Numbered from the stretch's first letter, positions 4,271 to 18,392 are shown. The stretch: 64,000 nt of DNA from Halosolutus amylolyticus (GCF_023566055.1 NZ_JALIQP010000002.1:434001-498000), one strand, 5' to 3'. Notes: generated by a model from the sequence alone, not told the origin. Translations and numbers: made by a program.

Positions 4271-4291
4271 CGAACGCTATCAATGCCGACC

Positions 4292-5434
4292 ATGAACCTG
4301 CTTGCGGTGGCTGCCGTCTCGCTTCTTTTCGTGACAGCCGTCCCCTATATCTGCTACCTCGGACTATATGCGTGGATTCGACCGCAGGGCTCACCCGCTG
4401 ACAAAGAACCCGCAGAACCAACGGTGAGTATCGTTCTCCCGACGTATAATGAAGCACAGATTGTGGAAACGAAACTCGACGATCTGCTCGAACTCGACTA
4501 TCCGATGGAAAAGGTCGAACTCGTCGTCGTCGACTCGTCGACCGACGACACCCGAGAACTCATCCGCAACTACTTCGCGGACATGGATGCCCCGGAACTG
4601 GTGCTGCTGGAAGAGGACGAGCGTCGCGGGCTCGCGCCGGCGCTCAACGACGCCTACGAGGCTGCATCGAACGAGATGGTCGTGAAGACCGACTGCGATT
4701 CCAAACTCTCGCCGGACGTGCTCCGGGAAGCCGCCGCGAATCTCGCGGACGACGACGTCGCGGCGGTGACTGGCCGGAACGTGGAGGTGTTAGGCGGGAG
4801 TGAGGTCGAATCCGGCTACCGTGGCGTCCAGAGTCACATCCAGCAGTTAGAGTCACACCTCGATTCTACGCTCATCTTTCATGGCCCCTTCTCTGCGTTT
4901 GAGAACGACGCACTGCTTCCGATCGATCCGAACTCGCTGGCCGACGACACCGAACTCGCGCTGAAGATTCGGCGCCAGGGCGATCGCGTGCTCTTCGATC
5001 CCGCCGTCCAGTACATGGAGGCCAGTCACTCTGAGTTCGTCAAGCGGCGAAAGCAGAAGGATCGCCGCGGAATGGGATTGATTCGGTTGCTAGTGCAGCA
5101 CCGAGACGCGATCGGCAGGTACGGCAAGTACGGACGCGTGGTGTTGCCGTTCAACTGGTGGTTCATGATCGTCTCGCCGTGGCTGCTCGCGGTGACGATC
5201 GTGATTTGGACCGGCGCGGCCCTTTCCCTGTTTGGGATCGGCGGGCTGGCGGTTCCGGTGGCAATCAGTGTATTCGTATTTCTCGGACAGCGTGACTTAC
5301 TCGGGCCTGTACAGACGCTGTACTCAATATTCGACACACAAGTGTCGCTGCTACGGGCCAGCGTAGAACTGTTAATTGGCGACTCGGACGGAACGTGGGA
5401 TGTCGATTCGGAGTTGCGGGAGGCGTTCGAATGA
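4292..5434 (+). CDS. Membrane glycosyltransferase family 2 (cluster A)
   Basis: 380 residues. One N-terminal membrane helix (about 3-25) leads to a GT-A domain starting at VSIVLPTYNE. It has the nucleotide-binding V-V-D-S-S-T-D-D and D-C-D-S (DxD-type) motifs and an acceptor-side D-D-T-E-L-A-L-K-I-R-R motif. Two or three membrane helices follow (about 285-340) after FNWWFM. The architecture fits a polyprenyl-phosphate-linked sugar transferase with its active site facing the cytoplasm. It is first in an eight-gene + strand series and has a clearly homologous partner at 40109-41269. The sugar donor cannot be told. ATG 4283 is the alternative start. Confidence 0.85.
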   Translation: MNLLAVAAVSLLFVTAVPYICYLGLYAWIRPQGSPADKEPAEPTVSIVLPTYNEAQIVETKLDDLLELDYPMEKVELVVVDSSTDDTRELIRNYFADMDAPELVLLEEDERRGLAPALNDAYEAASNEMVVKTDCDSKLSPDVLREAAANLADDDVAAVTGRNVEVLGGSEVESGYRGVQSHIQQLESHLDSTLIFHGPFSAFENDALLPIDPNSLADDTELALKIRRQGDRVLFDPAVQYMEASHSEFVKRRKQKDRRGMGLIRLLVQHRDAIGRYGKYGRVVLPFNWWFMIVSPWLLAVTIVIWTGAALSLFGIGGLAVPVAISVFVFLGQRDLLGPVQTLYSIFDTQVSLLRASVELLIGDSDGTWDVDSELREAFE

Positions 5435-5471
5435 AGAACCGAATTCACGTTGGAACAAGGAGGCAACTACA

Positions 5472-6602
5472 ATGACGGATGATCTCAAGGATCAGGACGT
5501 TTCAGTAGCAATTCTCCACGATCGATTCCCAGGAATCGGTGGTGGGGAAAAGTTCGCTATCGAGGCAGCTCGAGTGCTAAATGCGCCGGTATACACAATG
5601 TATGTTTACCCAGGAACAGAGATTCCAGACAACGTGGAGGTCATTCCAATACGACAGAAGAAGTACACAGGCGGTCTCTCTCAGCGGATTCTCGCGTGGC
5701 GGAACGAAGGTTCGAATCCACTCGAGACATTGAGCGTCGCGATGGACATGACAGACGCTCACCCTGAGCTCGTAGATTATGATGTGGTTCTCTCCAGTGC
5801 ACCGCTCAGTAAGAATTACGTCCCGACCACTGACCAACGAGTCGTCCACTATCCTCATAGCCCGCCGCGCTGGTTGTATGACCTATTCCGCGACCGTATG
5901 TCGTCGTTCGACTACTCTGGGATTCGGTTCATATTGAAAGCCTACGCAAAGTGGTGGCGTGCGCTCGACAAGGAGGCGAACGACTACGTGGACACGTTCG
6001 TCGCCAACAGCGAACTTATCCGGGATCGCATTCGACGCTACTACGATCGGGATGCAGAGGTTGTCTATCCACCTATAACAGGGGAGTGGCGTAACGAGGG
6101 TGACGACGGTTACTTCGTCACATGGTCGCGCCTCGCGCCTGAGAAGCGAATTGATCTGATCGTAGAGGCGTTTACCGAACTGGATGAAAAACTCGTTGTG
6201 GCTGGCGATGGTGAACAGCGCGAAAAGCTCGAACGCATGGCACGTGGCTACGATAACATCGAAATCCGAGGGTTCGTCGAGGACATCGAATCGCTGGTCG
6301 CGAAGGCGACTGCAGTCGTGTATGCGCCAAAGAATGAGGACTTTGGCATGGTTGGAGCAGAAGCCATGATGGCAGGAAAACCGTTGTTAGGTGTAGATGA
6401 GGGGTTCACAAAGTATCAGGTCGAACAGAGGATCACCGGAGAACTATTTGAGCCAACTGCCGAGTCGATACGAGAAGCGGTCCAAGAGTTCGACGCGAGC
6501 ATTTATGACGGAGACGAGATCCAAGATCGTGCCAGACGATATCGGTACAAGGAGTTCGAGACGGGATTGCGGCACATCGTTTCAAAGGTGACAAACGAAT
6601 GA
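5472..6602 (+). CDS. Glycosyltransferase family 4 (cluster A)
   Basis: 376 residues, GT-B fold. The N-terminal Rossmann domain opens VAILHDRFPGIGGGEKFAIEAARVL. The C-terminal donor domain has F-V-T-W-S-R-L-A-P-E-K-R-I-D-L and the EX7E-type motif E-D-F-G-M-V-G-A-E-A-M-M-A-G-K-P. The start is set by a strong Shine-Dalgarno sequence (aaggaggc, 5457-5464) eight bases before ATG 5472; an upstream in-frame ATG inside the previous gene lacks this. The stop overlaps the next start in ATGA. It adds a sugar to a lipid-linked intermediate at the cytoplasmic face (inferred). Paralogue at 38895-40112. Confidence 0.88.
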   Translation: MTDDLKDQDVSVAILHDRFPGIGGGEKFAIEAARVLNAPVYTMYVYPGTEIPDNVEVIPIRQKKYTGGLSQRILAWRNEGSNPLETLSVAMDMTDAHPELVDYDVVLSSAPLSKNYVPTTDQRVVHYPHSPPRWLYDLFRDRMSSFDYSGIRFILKAYAKWWRALDKEANDYVDTFVANSELIRDRIRRYYDRDAEVVYPPITGEWRNEGDDGYFVTWSRLAPEKRIDLIVEAFTELDEKLVVAGDGEQREKLERMARGYDNIEIRGFVEDIESLVAKATAVVYAPKNEDFGMVGAEAMMAGKPLLGVDEGFTKYQVEQRITGELFEPTAESIREAVQEFDASIYDGDEIQDRARRYRYKEFETGLRHIVSKVTNE

Positions 6603-7270
6603 ATGTCGAGCGTCCGATTACTCACGACGACCCCGACATCACAATCGTGATCCCGACGCTCCCTGTGAACAGTCACGACCAGGTGGTTGACGATCTTCAC
6701 AATCAGACACACGACGCTGTTGAGGTCATCGTAGTGAACGACCCGGAGAAAGACATCTGTGAGGCGCGCAATGCCGGCATTGAGGCAGCGTCAGCACCGA
6801 TCGTCGCGCTAACTGATGACGATTGTCGGCCACCAGCAGTGTGGGTAGAGCGCATCGTTGCAGCCTTTGAGGCCAATCCCCAACTGGTATGTCTGGAGGG
6901 GAGCGTTCGTGGTGGTCGCACATATGACGGTAAGCGGAAGTACGTAGGATGCAACCTTGCGTTCAACCGAAAGGAAGCATTAGCTGTCGGTGGATTCGAT
7001 AGCGATTACGCCGGATGGCGGGATGACACTGAGTTCGGCTGGCGGATGGAGCGAGATGCTGAGGGACACTGTATGTTCCTTGCTAATGTAGAAATGATCC
7101 ACCCAAACAAACCACGCGCAAGGATTGATAAGGGGAATGAAAATCGGCTGCAAGCCGGGTATCCGGGCAAGTATAACAAAATTATTTTACCCAATACCCT
7201 CCTTGGTCGTTTTAATGACTGGTTGTGGCGATGGGGTTTCTGGGACGCCGTTGACCGCATCCGTACCTGA
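6599..7270 (+). CDS. Soluble glycosyltransferase family 2 (cluster A)
   Basis: 223 residues, a single GT-A domain: I-T-I-V-I-P-T-L-P-V-N-S-H-D near residue 17, then D-I-C-E-A-R-N-A-G-I, A-L-T-D-D-D-C (DxD-like) and a conserved D-D-T-E-F-G-W-R-M-E-R acceptor motif. It has no membrane helix. It overlaps the preceding GT4 gene by four bases (ATGA), so translation is probably coupled. Closest relative in the window is 38176-38898. Base composition is lower in G+C than the genome average here. Confidence 0.87.
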   Translation: MNVERPITHDDPDITIVIPTLPVNSHDQVVDDLHNQTHDAVEVIVVNDPEKDICEARNAGIEAASAPIVALTDDDCRPPAVWVERIVAAFEANPQLVCLEGSVRGGRTYDGKRKYVGCNLAFNRKEALAVGGFDSDYAGWRDDTEFGWRMERDAEGHCMFLANVEMIHPNKPRARIDKGNENRLQAGYPGKYNKIILPNTLLGRFNDWLWRWGFWDAVDRIRT

Positions 7271-7272
7271 TC

Positions 7273-8592
7273 ATGACTAATATTGCACTTATTGTATTGG
7301 ACACGCTTCGGAAAGATACGTTTGATGAACACTTTGACTGGTTACCCGGCCAGCAGTTCGAGAATGCGTGGTCAACGAGTCACTGGACGGTGCCTGCACA
7401 CGCGTCGCTGTTTACAGGCAAGTATGCGAGCGAAGCAGGGGTCTACCGCGGCGCACAGATGCTTGATGTGGACGAAGAAGTGCTCCCCGAACGATTTTCT
7501 CGAGCGGGATATACTACCCGCGCATTCAGTGCCAATCCAAATATCTCTTCGCAGTTCTCATTTGACCGCGGATTTGATCAGTTCAAGGGGAGTTGGCGGT
7601 TGAACGCCATGGACGATAACCTGTTTGACTGGGACGTGTTTATCGAGAAACATCGTGAGGACGGCGCGTCACGCTACCTGAAAGCAATCTGGGAGTGCGT
7701 CATGGGCGACTGCAAAACTATCCCATCACTGAAGCGTGGCGGGTTGCTCAAACTGCGCGATCTGGGTTACGGAAAGTCAACTGTCGATGATGGTGCACAG
7801 TCGGCGCTGGAACTTATTGAGAACACGGACTTTGGTGATGAAGAGTTCTTCTTCGCAAACCTGATGGAAGCGCACTCTCCGTACTCCGCCCCAGCGGAGT
7901 ATCAGACTGTCGAGCCACCAGAAATACGAGGTCTTGAAGCTACTTTCACTGAGGTTAATTCAAACCCAGATCACATCAGGCAGGCATACCATGACGAAGT
8001 GCGCTACCTTTCGGACATGTATCAAAAGATGTTTACAGAACTACGTGAAGCCTTCGATATTATCATTACCGTGTCAGATCACGGCGAACTCCTAGGTGAA
8101 CACGATGCATGGGAGCATATGTACGGCATATATCCTGAGTTGACTCACATTCCTCTCGTTGTCTGGACCGGCGAAAATGATGCCGAACGCCGGAGCGAGA
8201 GCGTAAACTTGCTCGATATCTACCGTACCGTTCTTGAAATCGCCGATATCGATCCAGCAGACACGCGAGGCCGTGACCTCAGGACCGAACTTGATGATGC
8301 GAAGTGTCTTACCGAATATCACGGCATCTCAGAACGACACTACCAGTCGCTGTTAAACAAGGACATCGTCAATATTGAACACCTCCGTCAGGAACTCTCG
8401 GGGTTCGCGTGCCACAAGTACTACTACCACGAAACGTTCGACGGGTACAGAGAATACGGCGAGTCGCCCTACGACGATCCTGGCAGCCATTTATCTGACC
8501 TCGTTTCGAGTTTGGAGAAGCATTACATTGATGAGGAAGATGATATAGACGACGCCGTATTGGACCACTTAGAAGATCTGGGATATGCCTGA
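7273..8592 (+). CDS. AlkP-superfamily (sulfatase-fold) enzyme, type 1 (cluster A)
   Basis: 439 residues without a signal peptide. Metal ligand D10 lies in I-V-L-D-T-L-R. The nucleophile position is T39 in S-H-W-T-V-P-A-H-A-S-L-F-T-G. The second metal site D269-H270 lies in V-S-D-H-G-E-L-L-G-E-H. True sulfatases carry Cys/Ser-x-Pro-x-Arg, matured to formylglycine; here it is Thr-x-Pro-Ala-His, as in phosphotransferases and phosphodiesterases, so sulfatase activity is doubtful. It starts two bases after the GT2 stop. The C-terminus is L-E-D-L-G-Y-A, a tail shared by all enzymes of this fold here. A cytoplasmic role on nucleotide- or lipid-linked glycan intermediates is inferred. Paralogue 36738-38147. 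Confidence 0.8.
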   Translation: MTNIALIVLDTLRKDTFDEHFDWLPGQQFENAWSTSHWTVPAHASLFTGKYASEAGVYRGAQMLDVDEEVLPERFSRAGYTTRAFSANPNISSQFSFDRGFDQFKGSWRLNAMDDNLFDWDVFIEKHREDGASRYLKAIWECVMGDCKTIPSLKRGGLLKLRDLGYGKSTVDDGAQSALELIENTDFGDEEFFFANLMEAHSPYSAPAEYQTVEPPEIRGLEATFTEVNSNPDHIRQAYHDEVRYLSDMYQKMFTELREAFDIIITVSDHGELLGEHDAWEHMYGIYPELTHIPLVVWTGENDAERRSESVNLLDIYRTVLEIADIDPADTRGRDLRTELDDAKCLTEYHGISERHYQSLLNKDIVNIEHLRQELSGFACHKYYYHETFDGYREYGESPYDDPGSHLSDLVSSLEKHYIDEEDDIDDAVLDHLEDLGYA

Positions 8593-9201
8593 GGAAACAT
8601 TATGCGTCATAGCGCTTGATGCTGTCGACTACCAACTATAGTAGCCACTGAAAGTCAATGCACACCTGATCGCAGGACAGCTTTGCGATCAGTGTGTAAA
8701 TCGTTTCAGTGGCTACTATAGCCGGTAAATAGAACTGCAAGAACGTTCTTCTTGACAAGCACCGATAATTAAAAACGTTCTCGTACTCGAAAAAGGGGTG
8801 TAGTGACCTTGGAAGTCTGGACTTCCGTTGCGACTGGTGTCATCCCCGCGACCATGGAATGAGGTTAACAGGAGAGCGACAAGAGTGGAACAATCCACTA
8901 CTTCGAATCGCGGGTCGGAGAGAACGTTGACGAGATGCTAGGTAAGGATTGTGACTACGTTAATCGGCTTGTGGTGTTCTCTGATCGCGGAATGGTGGTT
9001 GGATGGATAGATGGCGACAAAGGGCCGGGTTCACACGGTTGGCAAGCTATGTTCGGAACAACCGAGAGCAAACCGTTACCAAAAGATATCTATGATGTTC
9101 GAGAATGGTTAGAGGAGCAGAAATCCGATCACGATGGTAATCGTGATACTACATCTCTCGGCATGGCTCGTGAACCCCTCAAAGAGCTCGGATACTTGTA
9201 A
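8585..9201 (+). pseudogene. Ruined AlkP-superfamily type 4 gene, remnant of the 32355-33359 family
   Basis: Fragments in different frames match the intact gene at 32355-33359 in order. 8585-8635 reads L-C-V-I-A-L-D-A-V-D-Y-Q-L and is cut by a MITE. 8721-8790 reads N-C-K-N-V-L-L-D-K-H-R with stops at TAG and TAA. 8809-8862 reads L-E-V-W-T-S-V-A-T-G-V. 8911-9201 reads from N-V-D-E-M-L-G through W-I-D-G-D-K to L-K-E-L-G-Y-L. About 190 residues of the middle are missing. The metal motif SDHG has become SDRG. ATG 8585 overlaps the end of the preceding gene, as in an operon. The open frame from 8935 could still make an 88-residue fragment, but it is not a working enzyme. Confidence 0.85.
8636..8721. 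mobile_element. 86-bp palindromic MITE inside the type 4 pseudogene
   Basis: Perfect 18-bp terminal inverted repeats, ctatagtagccactgaaa at 8636-8653 and its complement at 8704-8721. Inside lies a second imperfect inverted repeat (cacacctgatcgca against tgcgatcagtgtg), so the whole element folds into one long hairpin. No room for a gene. The target duplication cannot be separated from the palindromic tata at the ends. It interrupts the pseudogene after codon 18. Confidence 0.8.
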
Positions 9202-9334
9202 GGGGCATAATACAGCGATTAAGTATCGATACCCCCCAAATAGGCTGTGAAAATTGGTTGATTATATGTTGTGAAAACATCCGAGAAGATAAAAGAGACA
9301 TCTTCAAATCCCTTGGCTCAAAAAGGGATTACTG

Positions 9335-10435
9335 ATGAAGACCCTCCTGGTTACTGTGGACTCGCTTCGTCACGACCACTTCGAGTATATGCCGAACACA
9401 TTAACCTTTCTTGACATGAACCACAACCGTGCATTCGCCCCCTCGACGGCGACGATCGGCAGTTTTCCAGGGATTATTGGCGGGGAGTTCGCAAATGGGG
9501 CTGGGCTCACTGGAACAAGCATTGCAACTCGTTTTGACGAGTACAGCGTAGGCTTAACGACCAATCATCTTCTCTCAGAGGAGTACGGCTACGACGAGGG
9601 GTTCGATGTGTTCAACTCGCCGAAAGGCGGTGGTGACTCGATCAAGGACAAAGCCGCTATCTACCTTACTCGCGGCTCGTTTGCGTACCGGCTTGCCTCT
9701 TGGGGCTGGAGCCACTACCAGCGACTTACGAACCTATCTGGTGACGTCGAGAAATCCTTTCGGTCTGCTGAGAAGATTATCTCTCAGTTTGACTCAGAGA
9801 TCGACAACCGAGAAGAGTGGTTCGGTTGGTTGCATTTTATGGAACCACACCATCCGTACGACCCAGACGGTAGCGAAATGAGCCGTGCTCAGGCGCAGAG
9901 ACTCACACGTAAGGTTCTTGCTGGGAGCGGCGGCGAGTCAGATCAAGAGCGCGTTCGCGAACTCTATCGATTGGAAGTAGCTGAACTTGACAAGAAGCTG
10001 GATATGCTCTGGAAAGCGATTCCAGACGACACGCGAGTCGTGTTCTGTGCCGATCACGGAGAACTTCTAGGTGAAGACGGAATGTGGGGGCATCCGGGAG
10101 AAATGCGGCCTGAACTTCTTCGCGTTCCGTTTGGAACGAAAAATGCTCCAGAAATCGGTGGCGTCGTATCGCTCCTTGATGTACCGTCAATACTACTGGG
10201 ATCTGAATACGGACTGGGAGAATTGGACCGTGACGTTGCCTTCGCAACCTATGGGGTGAAGAAAGCGGCAATGAATGCCAACAACATAGCAACTGATAAG
10301 GGAGTTATATCATTCGACAGCAACGAGCCCACCGAAGATCCGAGTTTGGAGCGGGCACTCGATCGGTTCGAACCCGGTAGCGTGGTCAAGGAGGATGCGC
10401 TTAAGGAGGACTTGGAGGACCTCGGATACGCATGA
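9335..10435 (+). CDS. AlkP-superfamily enzyme, type 2 (cluster A)
   Basis: 366 residues, no signal peptide. D9 lies in L-L-V-T-V-D-S-L-R. The probable nucleophile is a Thr (T38 or T40) in A-P-S-T-A-T-I-G-S-F-P. A W-L-H-F-M-E-P-H-H-P-Y motif is present and D240-H241 lies in C-A-D-H-G-E-L-L-G-E. No sulfatase Cys/Ser-x-Pro-x-Arg. C-terminus L-E-D-L-G-Y-A. The stop overlaps the next start in ATGA. The 133 bases upstream (9202-9334) are A/T-rich and hold no gene. Close paralogue 35528-36691, nearly collinear along its length. Probably hydrolyses or transfers a phosphoester on a glycan precursor (inferred). Confidence 0.8.
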   Translation: MKTLLVTVDSLRHDHFEYMPNTLTFLDMNHNRAFAPSTATIGSFPGIIGGEFANGAGLTGTSIATRFDEYSVGLTTNHLLSEEYGYDEGFDVFNSPKGGGDSIKDKAAIYLTRGSFAYRLASWGWSHYQRLTNLSGDVEKSFRSAEKIISQFDSEIDNREEWFGWLHFMEPHHPYDPDGSEMSRAQAQRLTRKVLAGSGGESDQERVRELYRLEVAELDKKLDMLWKAIPDDTRVVFCADHGELLGEDGMWGHPGEMRPELLRVPFGTKNAPEIGGVVSLLDVPSILLGSEYGLGELDRDVAFATYGVKKAAMNANNIATDKGVISFDSNEPTEDPSLERALDRFEPGSVVKEDALKEDLEDLGYA

Positions 10436-11337
10436 CTGTCGTAGTTCTCGCCCTCGACGCACTAGATGCGGGTCTCGTAGAGTACTTTGATGCGACTGAG
10501 TTTGAACTCGAGTCGAGTAAGCAAATTCAAACATTTGCCCACAGTAAAGACAATCCCTATACCCCTGAAGTATGGGCAACGGTAGCTACAGGGCTTGGAC
10601 CGGATGAACACGGCATAACTGGTTCTGGCACGAGCGAGTGGAACAATTCGATTTTTGAGTTCGCTTCGCGGTTTACTGGGAGACTGGACGAATCGACACG
10701 CGGGACGCTCGGCCGATTCGTTCGCGAGAAGACCGGCGAGCGCGAACAGATCGGGGAGACTGACGTCGAATCGATATTCGATCGTGATGGAGCAGTCGTG
10801 CACAATTGGCCGGGTGTCCACGATGGCAGTGATCTACAACGGGCATGGGACCTGATGAACGCAGTTGCTGAAGGCAAGCCGAAACACGAATTCGAACAGG
10901 AGCTCCTCGGACTTGCTGCCCAGCAGTTTGGGTGGGTTCGAGAAATGCTTCACCACAATGTTGCGCTTGCAGGCGTTCATATCCATACCCTTGATGCTGC
11001 AGGTCACGCATACGCCGAGGACGAGGAATCGCTCCAACGGATCTACCAACGAGTCGCTGGTTTTGTAGACGAACTTGTACAAATTCTCAATCCGGATGAC
11101 AATCTCCTTCTATTGAGCGACCACGGAATGTGTACCTCTTTCTATAGGCCAACCGACAGAGACGGGAGTCCAGGCTCGCATTCTTGGCGTGCATACGCGA
11201 GTTCAACCACTACCGATGTTCCGGCCGACGTCTTTGATGTCGTCGACTGGATTGATGAGCACGTAAAGAACGGAACAATAGCTGATGAACAAATCGATAT
11301 CGACGAAGAGCATCTCAAAAATCTCGGTTACATATGA
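10432..11337 (+). CDS. AlkP-superfamily phosphodiesterase-like enzyme, type 3 (cluster A)
   Basis: 301 residues with the nucleotide pyrophosphatase/phosphodiesterase pattern: V-L-A-L-D-A-L-D (D9), nucleophile T50 in E-V-W-A-T-V-A-T-G-L-G-P-D-E-H-G, a D-A-A-G-H-A-Y metal motif and L-L-L-S-D-H-G-M. No signal peptide or membrane helix. C-terminus L-K-N-L-G-Y-I. Overlaps its neighbours by ATGA on both sides, so it is tightly coupled to the type 2 enzyme and the flippase. Paralogue 34602-35531. Substrate unknown; a sugar-nucleotide or polyprenyl-phosphate diester is a reasonable guess. Confidence 0.8.
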   Translation: MTVVVLALDALDAGLVEYFDATEFELESSKQIQTFAHSKDNPYTPEVWATVATGLGPDEHGITGSGTSEWNNSIFEFASRFTGRLDESTRGTLGRFVREKTGEREQIGETDVESIFDRDGAVVHNWPGVHDGSDLQRAWDLMNAVAEGKPKHEFEQELLGLAAQQFGWVREMLHHNVALAGVHIHTLDAAGHAYAEDEESLQRIYQRVAGFVDELVQILNPDDNLLLLSDHGMCTSFYRPTDRDGSPGSHSWRAYASSTTTDVPADVFDVVDWIDEHVKNGTIADEQIDIDEEHLKNLGYI

Positions 11338-12773
11338 ACGTCGGTGAGGCAGACTTCGGGCTCGAAATCTCACGAGGCGTCCTCGCAAAGTTCGCTATGG
11401 CCGCCATCGGCTTTGCTGGTTCCGTGATCTTTGCTCGAGTACTAGGACCGAGTGGCTACGGAACGTTCTACGTCGTCCTAACGCTCGTCCATGTCCTCGA
11501 TAACCCCGTAACTGGATGGGGAGGAGCCTGTAAAAAACGAATTTCCGAAACGGGTTTTCCGACGGCAGAGGCACTTGGTTCAGGGCTATTCGGTGCAGTG
11601 TTGCTCCCACTCATCATGTTGCCTATTGTGTATACATTTCACTATTTTACGGACATTTACGATCTCACTGGGTTATTTATTCCGTTCTCCACACTCTTCA
11701 CCATTATTTGTTTTTTTGCAGTTACAAATAGAATTCTCTCGGCACGTTCGAATTTTTCTGCCGCTGAATGGTCCGACACACTTCGATCACTCTTCACAAC
11801 TCCCCTGCAACTAGTATTTATCACTCTTGGGTTCGGAACCGCTGGAATGGTATACGGGCTAACTCTTGCGACTGCGTTGACTGTCCCTTACGTCATCTAC
11901 CGTATTCACGTCAAACCAGTACTTCCTACCAGAGAATCGTTATTTAGTATTGCATCCTATGCCAAGTATAGTATTCCGAATGGTTTTATCGGAACTGCTC
12001 AGTCGCGCTTCGACATACTTCTTCTCGGCGCACTTCTCACATCGTCGGCAGTTGGCGACTACCAAGTTGCAATGCAACTCACTTTAGCAGGAACGTTTAT
12101 CGGTGCTGTTACGTCAAAAGGGTTGATGGCTCGAGTAAGCGAACACTGGAGCAGAAACGACAAGTCAGCGGTGGTTACCGATGTTACGAATTCGCTCGGC
12201 TATGCGAGCGTTCTCGCAATACCGATTTTCTTCGGTGCTGCTGCGATGCCGAACACTCTGGTAGAGACAATATTCGGGTCACAGTACACTGGTATTGGAT
12301 TGGTTCTCGTTGGGTTAGCCTTCTTCCGAGTGTTAAAAGTGCAATCAGCTCAGCTTCAATCGACAATGGCCGGTCTAGATCGGCCAGACATTAACATGCG
12401 AATTGGAATAATTGTTTTAATTCTGAATGTCGGTCTTGGTTACCTCTTGCTCCTCAAATACGGGATCCTTGGCGTCGTGGGAGCAACGATTATCTCCGAA
12501 GTCGTTCGGTATACGGCACTTGCGTACATGATCAAACAGTACCTTCCAGACGTGCCCCTGTTTTCCCAACCCTTGCGCTTTCAACTGTTCGCTGGCTCCG
12601 TAATGTTTGTTCTTGTCGACCACCTCCACACTACCACCGGGGTTTCGTGGTGGGGAGACCTGTTGATCCTCGTCGGTCTTGGCGGACTCATCTATTTCGG
12701 GAGTCTTACAGTAATTAGCGAGTCGTTCCGCATCACCGCCAAAGGTATCCTCTCAGATGCTTTGAACAACTAG
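11334..12773 (+). CDS. Oligosaccharide flippase (Wzx/AglR-like, cluster A)
   Basis: 479 residues with about 14 hydrophobic segments, the MOP/polysaccharide-transporter fold. It opens G-V-L-A-K-F-A-M-A-A-I-G-F-A-G-S-V-I-F-A-R-V-L-G-P, a typical first helix of archaeal flippases such as AglR. It is predicted to move or help move lipid-linked glycans across the membrane to AglB, whose gene follows about 650 bases downstream. Translationally coupled to the type 3 enzyme by ATGA. Low G+C like the rest of cluster A. Paralogue 30589-32031, similar throughout. Confidence 0.87.
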   Translation: MNVGEADFGLEISRGVLAKFAMAAIGFAGSVIFARVLGPSGYGTFYVVLTLVHVLDNPVTGWGGACKKRISETGFPTAEALGSGLFGAVLLPLIMLPIVYTFHYFTDIYDLTGLFIPFSTLFTIICFFAVTNRILSARSNFSAAEWSDTLRSLFTTPLQLVFITLGFGTAGMVYGLTLATALTVPYVIYRIHVKPVLPTRESLFSIASYAKYSIPNGFIGTAQSRFDILLLGALLTSSAVGDYQVAMQLTLAGTFIGAVTSKGLMARVSEHWSRNDKSAVVTDVTNSLGYASVLAIPIFFGAAAMPNTLVETIFGSQYTGIGLVLVGLAFFRVLKVQSAQLQSTMAGLDRPDINMRIGIIVLILNVGLGYLLLLKYGILGVVGATIISEVVRYTALAYMIKQYLPDVPLFSQPLRFQLFAGSVMFVLVDHLHTTTGVSWWGDLLILVGLGGLIYFGSLTVISESFRITAKGILSDALNN

Positions 12774-13424: not shown

Positions 13425-16400
13425 ATGAGTACGGACACCGAACGCGTCGAGGAGGGGACGGAAACGTCCTTCCTCGAGACGTGGCGAGACTGGTATCACA
13501 TCCCCGTCGTCGGGGCCGTGATGCTGTTCATGTTCTGGGTACGGACCCAATCTTACAGCGAGTTCGTGACCGACGACGGGACGCCCGCCCTCGCGGGTGT
13601 CGACTCGTGGTACCACTGGCGAACGATCCAGTGGACCGCGGAGAACTACCCGCGAACGATGCCGTACGAGGTCTGGACCGGGTTCCCGACGGGCCAGTAC
13701 GTCGGGCAGTTCGGGACGCTGTTCGATCAACTCATCGTCACCGTCGCGATGATCGTCGGCCTCGGCGATCCGTCGCCCGAGACCCTCTACACGGTCTCCC
13801 TGCTCGCCATTCCGGCTATGGCCGCCCTCGTCGCCGTCCCCGTCTTCTACGCGGGCCGGCGACTCGGCGGCACGATCGGCGGCATCGTCTCCGTGATCGT
13901 CCTCGCGCTCGCGCCCGGCCAGTTCTTCGTCCGCTCGACGGTCGGGCAACTCGACCACCACGTCGGCGAGGTCCTGTTCATGGCGATCGCGGTCGTCGCG
14001 ATGATGGTCGCGCTTCGCGTGGGCGAGGAAGAAAAGCCGATCTACGAACTGGTGGCAGACCGAGACTGGGACGCCCTCCGCAGGCCGGCCATCTACAGTG
14101 CCCTCGCCGGGTTCGCACTCGCCCTGTACATCTGGGTCTGGCCGGCGGCGATCGTCCTCGTCGGCATCTTCGGCGTCTTCTTCGCCGTCCAGCTCTCTCT
14201 GGACTACGTTCGCGGCGTCTCGCCGGATCACGTCGCATTCGTCGGCGCCGTGAGCCTCGGTGTCACGACCATCGTGACAGCGCTCCTGATCGAGCAATCG
14301 GGATTCGGGACGACGGACTTCAGCTTCCTACAGCCGCTCACCGCACTGCTCGTCGCCGTCGGCTGTGTCTTCATGGCCTGGCTCGCTCGTGAGTGGAACA
14401 GCCGTGATCTCGAACGCCGGTACTATCCGGCCGCGATCGCCGGCATCGCCGTCGCTGCGATAGCCGTCATGTGGCTCACCCTCCCCGATCTGTACAGCAC
14501 CCTCATGGGGAACCTCACGAGCCGTCTGCTCCCGCTCGATCCGTCGACGGGAACGCTGACCATCCAGGAGGCACAGCCGCCGGAGAACTTCCTCTCGGAG
14601 TACGCGTTCGAGGAGTTCGGCGCGGCCTTCTACACGATGCTCGCCGGCCTCGCACTCCTCGCGGTGCGGCCGTTCCTCGGCCGCGAGTTCCGCGCTGAGT
14701 ACACCCTGGTCATCGTCTGGTCGCTGTTCCTGCTCAGCATGGCCGCGACGCAGATTCGCTTCGCGTACTACCTCGTGCTCGCGGTGGCGGTCGTCAACGC
14801 CGTCTTCGTCGCCGACGTCGTGCGGATCTTCGACCTCGACGTCCAGGGCGGCGTCGATTCGCTCAGGCAGATCGAAACCTACCAGGTCATCGTCCTGTTC
14901 ATGGTCGTCCTCCTGCTGTTCGCGCCGCTGCTCCCGCCGCTCGCCAGCGCGGGGGTCGTCGAGCGCGGCGACAACACCGGCCCACACAGCGACGCCATGA
15001 CCTGGGAGCAGTCGACCCACTGGCTCGAGGAGAACACCCCCGAGCCGGGGAACTACGGCGACGCCGAAAACGCCGACCAGCTCGACTACTACGGCACCTA
15101 CAATCCCGACGATGGCGACTACGACTACCCCGACGGGGCCTACGGCGTGATGTCGTGGTGGGACTACGGCCACCTGATAACGACCCAGGGCGAGCGGATC
15201 CCCCACTCGAACCCGTTCCAGCAGAACGCCCGCTCCTCGTCGGCGTATCTCACCGCCGAATCCGAAGCGGAAGGGGAGCTGGTCCTCGACGCGATCGCCT
15301 CCGACGCGGACGTCAACTGGGGAGACTACGACCAGGAAGAGCTCGAATCGATCGTCGCCGACTCCGACGGGAGCGGCGAGGAGATCCGGTACGTGATGAT
15401 CGACGACCAGATGGTCGGTGGCAAGTTCAGCGCGATCACCCAGTGGACCGGCCCCGATCGCGGCCACTACGTGACGCCCGACGGCTACGAGGAGGGCGAT
15501 CAGATCCCGGTCTCCGCGCTCGAGAACGCGTCCTCCGACGCGCCGTACCACGACACGATGCAGGCCCGGCTGTACTTCGACGACGCCAGCGGGATGGAAC
15601 ACTACCGGCTCGTCCACGAGAACGACGACTACGTGATGGCGTTCACGAGTTACGCGATCGTCAACACCCAGACCGGCAACGTCCTGACAGAGGACCTCGG
15701 GACCGTGATCGATCGCTTGGTCCAGCAGCAGGGAGAGGGCGAGGTCGAGGCCCCGGAAGACACCGCGTGGGAGCCCCAGATCTACATGAACCAGCGGGGT
15801 GGCCCACAGCAGATCCAGCAGCGGTACAGCTTCCTCCAGCAGATCCCGCAGCTGGAACTCCAGCCCTTCGACGTGCGCCAGGCCGCCGCGATCAAGACCT
15901 ACGAGCGCGTCGAGGGCGCGACGCTGACCGGCACCGTCGAGGACGAGCACCTCCGGGACGGTAACGCGACGGTCCGGGCGACGGTCGAACTCGATCGGAA
16001 CTCGCGACTGGGCTCGCTCACGTACCAGCAGACCGCGACGGTCCAGGAGGACGGCAGCTTCGAAATGACCGTTCCGTACGCGACCGACGACGAACTCGGC
16101 GTCGAGGACGGCGCCACGAACAGCGACGTCGAGGCGAACGGCTCGTACTCGCTGTCCGTCGTCGGCCCGCACCCCGAGCAGCCCTTGCCCGGCGTGCAGT
16201 ACGAGGGCCAGACCGAGGTCCCCGAGACGGCGGTCGTCGACGGTGAGACGATCGACGTCGACCTCGAGGAGGTCGAGTTCGAGGAGACCGATCCGGGCAA
16301 CGAGTCCGACGGCAACGAGACCGACGCCGGCAACGAAACTGGCGACGACGGGACCGCGGGCAACGAGACGGGAGACAACGAGACGCAGACTGACGAGACG

Positions 16401-16442
16401 GCCGGATCGATCGCCCCGATCGCCGCCGAACCCGCGCACTGA
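13425..16442 (+). CDS. aglB: AglB oligosaccharyltransferase (STT3 family)
   Basis: 1005 residues. It transfers a lipid-linked oligosaccharide to Asn in N-X-S/T sequons of S-layer and other surface proteins. The N-terminal half is multi-pass, with D60 in the first external loop (A-G-V-D-S-W-Y-H-W-R). The catalytic WWDYG motif is at residues 578-582, on the outer face. Beta-rich external domains follow. The C-terminal tail is Asp/Glu/Thr-rich and contains five N-E-S/T sequons between N959 and N985, so the enzyme may glycosylate itself. No C-terminal membrane anchor is seen. It follows cluster A but has its own promoter. Confidence 0.97.
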   Translation: MSTDTERVEEGTETSFLETWRDWYHIPVVGAVMLFMFWVRTQSYSEFVTDDGTPALAGVDSWYHWRTIQWTAENYPRTMPYEVWTGFPTGQYVGQFGTLFDQLIVTVAMIVGLGDPSPETLYTVSLLAIPAMAALVAVPVFYAGRRLGGTIGGIVSVIVLALAPGQFFVRSTVGQLDHHVGEVLFMAIAVVAMMVALRVGEEEKPIYELVADRDWDALRRPAIYSALAGFALALYIWVWPAAIVLVGIFGVFFAVQLSLDYVRGVSPDHVAFVGAVSLGVTTIVTALLIEQSGFGTTDFSFLQPLTALLVAVGCVFMAWLAREWNSRDLERRYYPAAIAGIAVAAIAVMWLTLPDLYSTLMGNLTSRLLPLDPSTGTLTIQEAQPPENFLSEYAFEEFGAAFYTMLAGLALLAVRPFLGREFRAEYTLVIVWSLFLLSMAATQIRFAYYLVLAVAVVNAVFVADVVRIFDLDVQGGVDSLRQIETYQVIVLFMVVLLLFAPLLPPLASAGVVERGDNTGPHSDAMTWEQSTHWLEENTPEPGNYGDAENADQLDYYGTYNPDDGDYDYPDGAYGVMSWWDYGHLITTQGERIPHSNPFQQNARSSSAYLTAESEAEGELVLDAIASDADVNWGDYDQEELESIVADSDGSGEEIRYVMIDDQMVGGKFSAITQWTGPDRGHYVTPDGYEEGDQIPVSALENASSDAPYHDTMQARLYFDDASGMEHYRLVHENDDYVMAFTSYAIVNTQTGNVLTEDLGTVIDRLVQQQGEGEVEAPEDTAWEPQIYMNQRGGPQQIQQRYSFLQQIPQLELQPFDVRQAAAIKTYERVEGATLTGTVEDEHLRDGNATVRATVELDRNSRLGSLTYQQTATVQEDGSFEMTVPYATDDELGVEDGATNSDVEANGSYSLSVVGPHPEQPLPGVQYEGQTEVPETAVVDGETIDVDLEEVEFEETDPGNESDGNETDAGNETGDDGTAGNETGDNETQTDETAGSIAPIAAEPAH

Positions 16443-16541
16443 CCGCCGGTTCCCGACCGACGGAACGATCACGAATCGACTGACGGCCGCGCGATCCGAA
16501 AGTGAGAAGGCTTTTACCGGCATTCGGAATACCAACGAGCG

Positions 16542-17468
16542 ATGCGGGAACTTCTCGCCGTCTACCTCAAGGGATTCTCGATGGGGTCTGCGGACGTCGT
16601 TCCGGGCGTTTCCGGGGCGACGATCGCGCTCATCGTCGGCATCTACGATCGACTGATCGCCGCGATCACGGCGATCGACCCGCGCCGCTTCGATTCGATC
16701 CTCCGCCTCCACGAACCGGATGGCAGGGCGGCTCTCCGGGAGGAAATCGAGCGTATCGACGCACCGTTCCTGATCGCGCTGGGGCTCGGCATCGCGACGG
16801 CGATCGTGGTGCTCTCGCAGCTCATGCACGAGGCGGTGACGGTGTATCCCGTCCCGACCTACGGCTTCTTCTTCGGACTCATCGCGGCGTCGGCGATCGT
16901 CCTCTACGGCGAGGTCGAAACCTGGACCGCCCCGCGAGTGGCCGTCTCGATCGCCGGGATCGCGATCGCGGCGGCGGTGACGGGCGTCACGGCGGGCGAT
17001 GCCCCACACGGGTTACCGATGCTCCTTCTCGCCGGTGCGGTCGCGATCTGTGCGATGGTGCTCCCGGGCGTCTCGGGCGCGTTCTTCCTGCTGGTCCTCG
17101 GGCAGTACGAGTACATGACCGGGACGCTGAGCCGGTTCGTCGACGGGATCGTCGGCCTGGCGAACGGCGGGTCGCTGACGCCGGTGATCGAGGCGGGGAC
17201 TATCGTCGCGGTCTTCGGCGTCGGGGCGGCCATCGGCCTGTTCACGATGGCCCACGCGGTCAGTCGCGCGCTCGATCGGTACCGGGCCGCGACGCTCGCC
17301 TTCCTCGTGAGCCTGATGGTCGGCGCGCTCCGGCTTCCCGTGACGGAGGTCTCCACGAACCTCGGCGACACGACGGCGAACTCGCCGGGAGCCGCGGTGC
17401 TGGCCGCGCTCGTCGGGATCGTCGCCGTGCTGGTCGTCGATCGGTACACGGACGATCTGGAGTACTAG
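16542..17468 (+). CDS. DUF368 membrane protein, candidate polyprenyl-phosphate translocase
   Basis: 308 residues with about eight membrane helices. The family signature K-G-F-S-M-G-S-A-D-V-V-P-G-V-S-G-A-T at residues 9-26 is repeated as M-V-L-P-G-V-S-G-A-F-F near residue 170, the two half-repeats of DUF368. Bacterial DUF368 proteins have been shown to recycle undecaprenyl phosphate across the membrane. Directly after aglB, the natural substrate would be the dolichyl phosphate left after glycan transfer (inference). A TATA element (cttttac, 16512-16518) about 27 bases before ATG suggests a leaderless transcript of its own. Confidence 0.85.
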   Translation: MRELLAVYLKGFSMGSADVVPGVSGATIALIVGIYDRLIAAITAIDPRRFDSILRLHEPDGRAALREEIERIDAPFLIALGLGIATAIVVLSQLMHEAVTVYPVPTYGFFFGLIAASAIVLYGEVETWTAPRVAVSIAGIAIAAAVTGVTAGDAPHGLPMLLLAGAVAICAMVLPGVSGAFFLLVLGQYEYMTGTLSRFVDGIVGLANGGSLTPVIEAGTIVAVFGVGAAIGLFTMAHAVSRALDRYRAATLAFLVSLMVGALRLPVTEVSTNLGDTTANSPGAAVLAALVGIVAVLVVDRYTDDLEY

Positions 17469-17480
17469 AACCGCCCGTCG

Positions 17481-17933
17481 TCACTCGGATACCGCGTGAA
17501 ACTCGGAGAGAATCTCGTCGGGTACGGGATTCCGGTACTCGAACGGTTCGTCCGCACACAGCGTCTCGAAATCCCGATCGGTGGTAAGGAGCACGTCGGC
17601 ATCCGCCTCCCGCGCGACGGCGACGTAAAAGCAGTCGTAGACGTCGTGATTCTTTGCGGCGCTAATCTCGTAGGCGTCGAGGATGGTCTGCGGTGTCACG
17701 TCGACGGGTTCCATCGGATACTGGAGCAGCGAACTCACGGCGTTCCGCGCATCGACCGTCGGAACGTCGAGATCCTCCAGCACCCACTGGACGCGAAGCG
17801 GGAGGTACCCGAACATCAGGAGCGTCCGTTCCCCCTGCAGGGCAGGCACGAGGTGGTCGGCGATGTACGGATGCCCCGGATGGTCGTCGATCAGCTGGAT
17901 AGCGAGCGCATTGAGATCGGGAAGGACCCGCAT
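17481..17933 (-). CDS. PIN-domain toxin (VapC-like)
   Basis: 150 residues with a PIN ribonuclease fold: D6 in L-P-D-L-N-A-L, D100 in D-V-Y-D-C-F-Y-V-A-V-A, and D119/D121 in L-L-T-T-D-R-D-F. These are the usual metal-binding acids; the acid normally near residue 40 is not obvious (L-M-F-G-Y-L). It starts directly after the stop of the antitoxin gene with no gap, the classical two-gene layout. The predicted action is cleavage of RNA when the antitoxin is lost. Confidence 0.85.
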   Translation of the reverse strand: MRVLPDLNALAIQLIDDHPGHPYIADHLVPALQGERTLLMFGYLPLRVQWVLEDLDVPTVDARNAVSSLLQYPMEPVDVTPQTILDAYEISAAKNHDVYDCFYVAVAREADADVLLTTDRDFETLCADEPFEYRNPVPDEILSEFHAVSE

Positions 17934-18200
17934 TTACCGCCCTCCGAACGTCGCTTCCCCCGCATCACGGAACGCCTTTTCGCCCCAGTCGTCTCGTGAT
18001 TTGCCGGTGGAGAGCGTCTGCAGTTCGGGGAGGTGACGGACGAGACGGATGTCGCGTCCCTCTCGAACGACGGTAAACGTCGTCCCGCCCTCGATGTGGA
18101 GGTCGTCTCGGAGCTCTTTCGGAATCGTCAGCCGGCCGCGATCGTTGATTTCGGCCTCCCCGTACTCCTCCTCGGTAGCCGTATCGTCGGTCGAACTCAT
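17934..18200 (-). CDS. AbrB/SpoVT-type antitoxin
   Basis: 88 residues from ATG 18200. A swapped-hairpin DNA-binding motif, A-E-I-N-D-R-G-R-L-T-I-P-K-E-L-R-D-D-L, is near residues 20-38, followed by a C-terminal toxin-binding segment rich in Arg/Asp. A longer in-frame start (18356) is unlikely, since its 52 extra residues look non-coding. Upstream, tcatca at 18233-18238 and tgatga at 18249-18254 form an inverted repeat near the promoter, a possible autoregulatory operator. Confidence 0.85.
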   Translation of the reverse strand: MSSTDDTATEEEYGEAEINDRGRLTIPKELRDDLHIEGGTTFTVVREGRDIRLVRHLPELQTLSTGKSRDDWGEKAFRDAGEATFGGR

Positions 18201-18392
18201 CTGATCACCCTGTATGTATCTACCTGATTCAATCATCATAAGCGCTGGTGATGAATCGGTTTTGAGAGTTCGAAGACGGCCGTCCTGGTACCGCACGTCG
18301 GGTACTGACGACAACTGACCGACACCGACTGCGAGAGTTGCCGTGGAAAATCTCACGTCCTGGTCGTCTCTCCAGCGGAACCAGCGGGAAAA

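Follow-up and report, generated by a model that had tools for sequence, protein, structure and literature searches.

A DUF368 membrane protein encoded behind aglB is a candidate for dolichyl-phosphate return in haloarchaeal N-glycosylation

Loss of DUF368 or DedA proteins in bacteria leads to undecaprenyl phosphate at the cell surface (PMC9876793, PMC12826051). In Pseudomonas, the two families are mutually exclusive, and DedA can be replaced by DUF368 (PMC12893004). Sit et al. 2022 (PMC9876793) showed at least partial complementation of a Vibrio mutant by the DUF368 protein of Haloferax volcanii; the same authors mentioned dolichol phosphate as a possibility, and suggested a sodium dependence and an enrichment of DUF368 in halophiles, which would suit haloarchaea. 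The glycans of H. volcanii ride on dolichol phosphate (PMC3871713), and dolichol monophosphate was the carrier of the archaeal N-glycans characterised to the date of PMC4476749. The papers on archaeal N-glycosylation pathways consulted here assign no protein to the inward return of the empty dolichyl phosphate. To our knowledge, this step is likewise an open question in eukaryotes. The transport family itself was already known, and what is specific here is the assignment of its haloarchaeal member to a pathway. The idea is less new than the original prediction had made it, since both the Vibrio complementation and the mention of dolichol phosphate were already in print (PMC9876793). In the literature searched, which did not include Roney and Rudner's paper on PopT, no report was found that ties DUF368 to AglB or to N-glycosylation. 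The abstract of that 2022 paper reportedly mentions synteny, and the paper may already contain the haloarchaeal pairing of aglB with DUF368.

On the + strand of the window, by which we mean the whole stretch of 64,000 nucleotides of Halosolutus amylolyticus DNA that was analysed, aglB (13425-16442) encodes an archaeal oligosaccharyltransferase (STT3) of the archaeosortase-A-associated type, as assigned with Pfam, NCBIfam and the translation. The gene is full-length. Its 1005-residue product contains the Pfam domains STT3, AglB_core and AglB_L1, scored 872 bits against NCBIfam TIGR04154 (cut-off 450) and carries the WWDYG motif, so that every feature looked for in an AglB/STT3 protein was present. 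As the original prediction had claimed, a DUF368 gene (16542-17468, + strand) comes right after aglB, both genes being confirmed by their profiles (PF04018 and those for AglB), with an intergenic stretch of 99 bases between them (16443-16541, + strand). Within this gap, the motif TTTTA (16512-16516) precedes the ATG of DUF368 by about 27 bases, which is the spacing that a haloarchaeal leaderless promoter would show. The motif could serve as TATA box for a DUF368 transcript without a leader, in which case the gene may own a transcription start here besides read-through from aglB.

The two genes close a co-oriented glycan cluster. In order along the + strand, the cluster encodes three glycosyltransferases (4283-5434, 5376-6602 and 6599-7270, spanning 4283-7270), two sulfatase-like proteins (7273-8592 and 9335-10435), a type I phosphodiesterase-like protein (10432-11337), a MOP-type polysaccharide flippase (11334-12773; Polysacc_synt, from Pfam and NCBIfam) that likely exports lipid-linked glycan, AglB and the DUF368 protein. 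The sulfatase-like and phosphodiesterase-like genes form a trio of the alkaline-phosphatase superfamily between the glycosyltransferases and the flippase (7273-11337), perhaps for glycan sulfation or phosphate trimming. Beyond the cluster, a probable toxin-antitoxin pair on the - strand (17481-18356) is convergent with the DUF368 gene; it consists of a PIN-domain protein and a protein similar to MazE/AbrB. A protein with four DUF1508 repeats is encoded on the + strand at the window's edge (34-1473).

We consider it likely that the DUF368 protein is a transporter of the PopT/VCA0040 type that takes dolichyl monophosphate from the outer face of the membrane, once AglB has acted, and returns it to the inner face. 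The glycosyltransferases would assemble the glycan on dolichyl phosphate at the inner face, the MOP-type flippase would move the loaded dolichyl carrier outward, and AglB would hand the glycan to protein, leaving dolichyl phosphate outside. The DUF368 protein, with its two homologous halves and their PGxSG hairpins, would then bring dolichyl phosphate back for the next round. The substrate, the direction and N-glycosylation as the main user are what we infer here; the position behind aglB, the separate MOP-type flippase and a near-perfect co-occurrence with AglB (see below) point to the return step. While the original prediction had AglB release dolichyl (pyro)phosphate, only the monophosphate stands, as the by-product of haloarchaeal AglB and the type of substrate handled by the family. 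Because the carrier is dolichol monophosphate, this by-product would directly be a substrate of the right type, with no pyrophosphatase needed in between. We considered the opposite direction, in which DUF368 would not bring the empty carrier inward but export the loaded one, flipping dolichyl-phosphate-linked sugars in the manner of AglR/Agl15. The location of the gene in a glycan cluster and its membership of a transporter family would agree with such a role. However, the cluster in the window already has its MOP-type flippase, and the characterised relatives of DUF368 handle bare undecaprenyl phosphate (PMC9876793, PMC12893004), making outward transport highly unlikely.

The DUF368 protein, a 308-residue membrane protein of PF04018 (VCA0040-like, PopT-type), matched the family model over positions 1-234 of 246 with 226.6 bits (cut-off 26; E 4.5e-67), and the 4.6 Mb genome has no other PF04018 match. 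The protein was filed under PF04018 and not under the NCBI equivalogs NF052564 and NF052563, since its scores against these (197.7 and 99.8 bits, respectively) are below the cut-off of 400. Bacterial DUF368 proteins (from Salinivibrio, Parabacteroides, Halomonas and Photobacterium) are ≈34-40% identical to it and have invariant residues in common with it. The family signature, which had been said to occur twice, was indeed found as PGVSG at residues 21-25 (16602-16616, + strand; hairpin of repeat 1) and again at residues 175-179 (17064-17078, + strand; hairpin of repeat 2). Both PGxSG motifs were invariant in an alignment of 63 archaeal DUF368 sequences, and a conserved basic residue, K10, lies just upstream of the first one. 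The two halves of the protein (residues 1-130 and 150-308) are homologous by profile-profile comparison (E 1.4e-12, probability 97.7%, compared to 8% for a reversed-sequence control). Judging from this homology, the doubled signature stems from a duplication within the protein, which is typical of the DUF368 family and no peculiarity of the window gene.

The AlphaFold2 model of the protein (mean pLDDT 92.4, pTM 0.86) is all helical and has a multi-helix membrane fold, in which a short broken hairpin is predicted at each PGxSG motif, with long helices after it. There was no solved structure in the PDB related to the protein by sequence, and Foldseek gave no match to the model at E 0.001 or better. 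The best VIA-align row was a ZIP zinc transporter (Z 9.8), which was rejected, as this score is within the uninformative range of the tool for helical proteins. No viral copies of DUF368 were confirmed in the viral contigs searched. Four phage records (OR850095, PV200784, OR844991 and MT836900) carry a DUF368 gene, probably as flanking or contaminating host DNA.

The pairing was followed through 292 haloarchaeal genomes, representing 78 genera and 11 families, with the profiles PF04018 and PF22627 (AglB core). Genomes beyond the best-match listing were searched one by one, and all positions were then merged. PF04018 was found in 289 and PF22627 in 287 of these genomes; 286 had both genes, one had AglB alone, three had DUF368 alone and two had neither. 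The genes were taken as linked when both had the same orientation and DUF368 followed the AglB core within 3.5 kb. Linked pairs were present in 203 of the 286 genomes with both genes, in 55/78 genera and 9/11 families. The DUF368 match in the linked genomes was 0.9-3.4 kb behind the AglB core, a distance that leaves room only for the C-terminal part of AglB and at most one or two genes or so. By chance, ≈0.1-0.2 linked genomes would be expected (assuming a 3.5 kb same-strand window in ≈3.7 Mb and ignoring relatedness); the adjacency is thus far beyond chance. The gaps from the aglB stop to the DUF368 start (as chosen by a script) were mostly -4 to +157 bases, and in 16 entries (14 genomes) the two genes overlap by 4 or 1 bases. 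The original prediction, which had proposed this count and would have been refuted by a lack of conservation, came through it in haloarchaea, where the conserved adjacency supports DUF368 as a candidate gene for carrier return. One might object that the two genes have no functional link and hitch-hike in an ancestral gene order, as neighbors are often co-inherited within families, and the linkage is absent outside Halobacteria (see below). However, in the loci chosen as linked, the flanking genes (before aglB and after DUF368) vary between genera while the pair stays, and this persistence, the many end-to-end or overlapping junctions and the co-occurrence in 286/292 genomes leave hitch-hiking highly unlikely.

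Some pairs are interrupted or separated. In several Haloferax and Halogeometricum genomes and in Haloquadratum, aglM (UDP-glucose dehydrogenase) lies between aglB and DUF368, and in Halobellus, where the link to aglB is lost, aglM still adjoins DUF368. By physical linkage, DUF368 therefore belongs with the agl pathway, through aglB in the 203 linked genomes and through aglM in Haloferax, Haloquadratum, Halogeometricum and Halobellus. The published H. volcanii cluster extends from HVO_1517 (aglJ) to HVO_1531 (aglM) (PMC3871713); DUF368 would be the next gene beyond its end, if the order seen in the Haloferax relatives applies. At one locus (L211, genome G043), ≈2.4 kb (4466-6853), including a reading frame of 295 residues, separates aglB from DUF368, which may be an insertion; the relatives have a direct junction. 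The pair was not together in 83 haloarchaeal genomes, which speaks against the return step: the genes were far apart in 44 and on different contigs in 39, a few cases being contig ends. Some of the different-contig cases are assembly breaks, as in G262, where aglB is at a contig end and aglM-DUF368 on another contig. Furthermore, synteny speaks for a common pathway, not for a reaction.

A DUF368 tree of 123 sequences was calculated by a quick method, with SH-aLRT values and no bootstrap. The deep haloarchaeal branches of this tree are occupied by aglB-linked copies, and the linkage therefore looks ancestral in Halobacteria. Most unlinked copies (36 sequences; unlinked loci L099-L131, L137 and L138) form a single clade (SH-aLRT 96). 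Its members are scattered over families f1, f3 and f11, a pattern resembling spread by transfer, with the incoming gene replacing or joining the linked one. In this clade, position 10 is I, V or Y, the basic residue being gone in 36/36 sequences; K or R occupies this position in 57/57 linked copies, 9/10 relocated copies, 20/20 sequences from other archaea and 4/4 of the bacteria examined. R264 is also lost in part of the unlinked clade. A tentative and rather doubtful reading of this pattern is that haloarchaeal DUF368 proteins fall into two functional classes: one ancestral and AglB-coupled, in which K/R10 would meet the phosphate, and one mobile and independent of aglB, which lacks this residue. 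The former would be produced in step with AglB, perhaps receiving dolichyl phosphate directly from it, and the latter would act on another lipid or use another energy source.

The unlinked copies are also relevant to a broader role, in which DUF368 would be a general recycler of dolichyl phosphate or similar lipids for all surface glycans. N-glycosylation would then be one user among others, including exopolysaccharides and the dolichyl-phosphate-hexose of AglS-type enzymes, and the adjacency to aglB would reflect the largest user. Genomes with an unlinked copy only, in which DUF368 is found among non-glycan genes, manage with it, and AglB was undetected in the three genomes that have DUF368 alone. 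No other glycan gene, however, stays with DUF368 as persistently as aglB does, and we therefore consider general recycling unlikely.

For the preferred role, return of dolichyl monophosphate after AglB, the distribution outside Halobacteria is less favorable. DUF368 was patchily present in 54 of the 312 non-haloarchaeal genomes of the phylum sample, and none of these 54 had it adjacent to STT3. In several genomes of family f30, DUF368 and STT3 are 13-20 kb apart; this linkage was rejected, as the intervening tiaS, chaperonin and kinase are non-glycan genes. The neighbor of DUF368 in f30 is uracil phosphoribosyltransferase, which is not a glycan gene either. The linkage of aglB and DUF368 is thus a haloarchaeal rule only, and the adjacency expected over archaea held for Halobacteria and failed for the rest of the phylum. 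Both the lack of aglB linkage outside Halobacteria and the lack of DUF368 in most other genomes of the phylum count against the return step.

So do the DedA-family proteins, which were present alongside DUF368 in every haloarchaeon sampled and could do the same job; redundancy is therefore to be expected upon deletion of DUF368. Among the non-haloarchaeal genomes, DedA (PF09335) was rarer alongside DUF368, occurring in 12/54 genomes with and 128/258 without it (Fisher p 2.5e-4, uncorrected for relatedness), which fits a mutual replacement of the two families. About half of the DUF368-negative genomes have no DedA either, and other proteins must therefore exist. DedA was not found in the place of DUF368 beside STT3, except in G445, where it is ≈2 kb off and on the other strand. 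One haloarchaeal genome of 1.9 Mb (G021; aglB at L032) has AglB and DedA without DUF368 and is a natural test case for DUF368 replacement.

A single gene tied to aglB in most haloarchaea makes the question of carrier return experimentally approachable, in organisms with good genetics and with measurable S-layer glycans and dolichyl-phosphate pools. If the proposed role is true, the DUF368 transport family reaches from peptidoglycan to protein glycosylation.

Compared to the C55-P translocases VCA0040 of Vibrio cholerae and PopT of Gram-positives, the window protein has a whole-domain match and both PGxSG motifs in common with them, but falls below the NCBI equivalog cut-offs, has aglB as its partner gene and would have dolichyl phosphate as its lipid. 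It also has an insert at approximately residues 200-217 that the aligned bacterial and methanogen proteins lack. The DedA proteins UptA/PA4029 (PF09335) were proposed for the same bacterial step, but belong to a different Pfam family from DUF368. AglR and Agl15 of H. volcanii have the pathway, the carrier and membrane transport in common with the role proposed here; unlike the DUF368 protein, they are proposed to move loaded carriers outward (PMC3871713, PMC4335974), and the gene of the corresponding type in the window is the flippase gene at 11334-12773.
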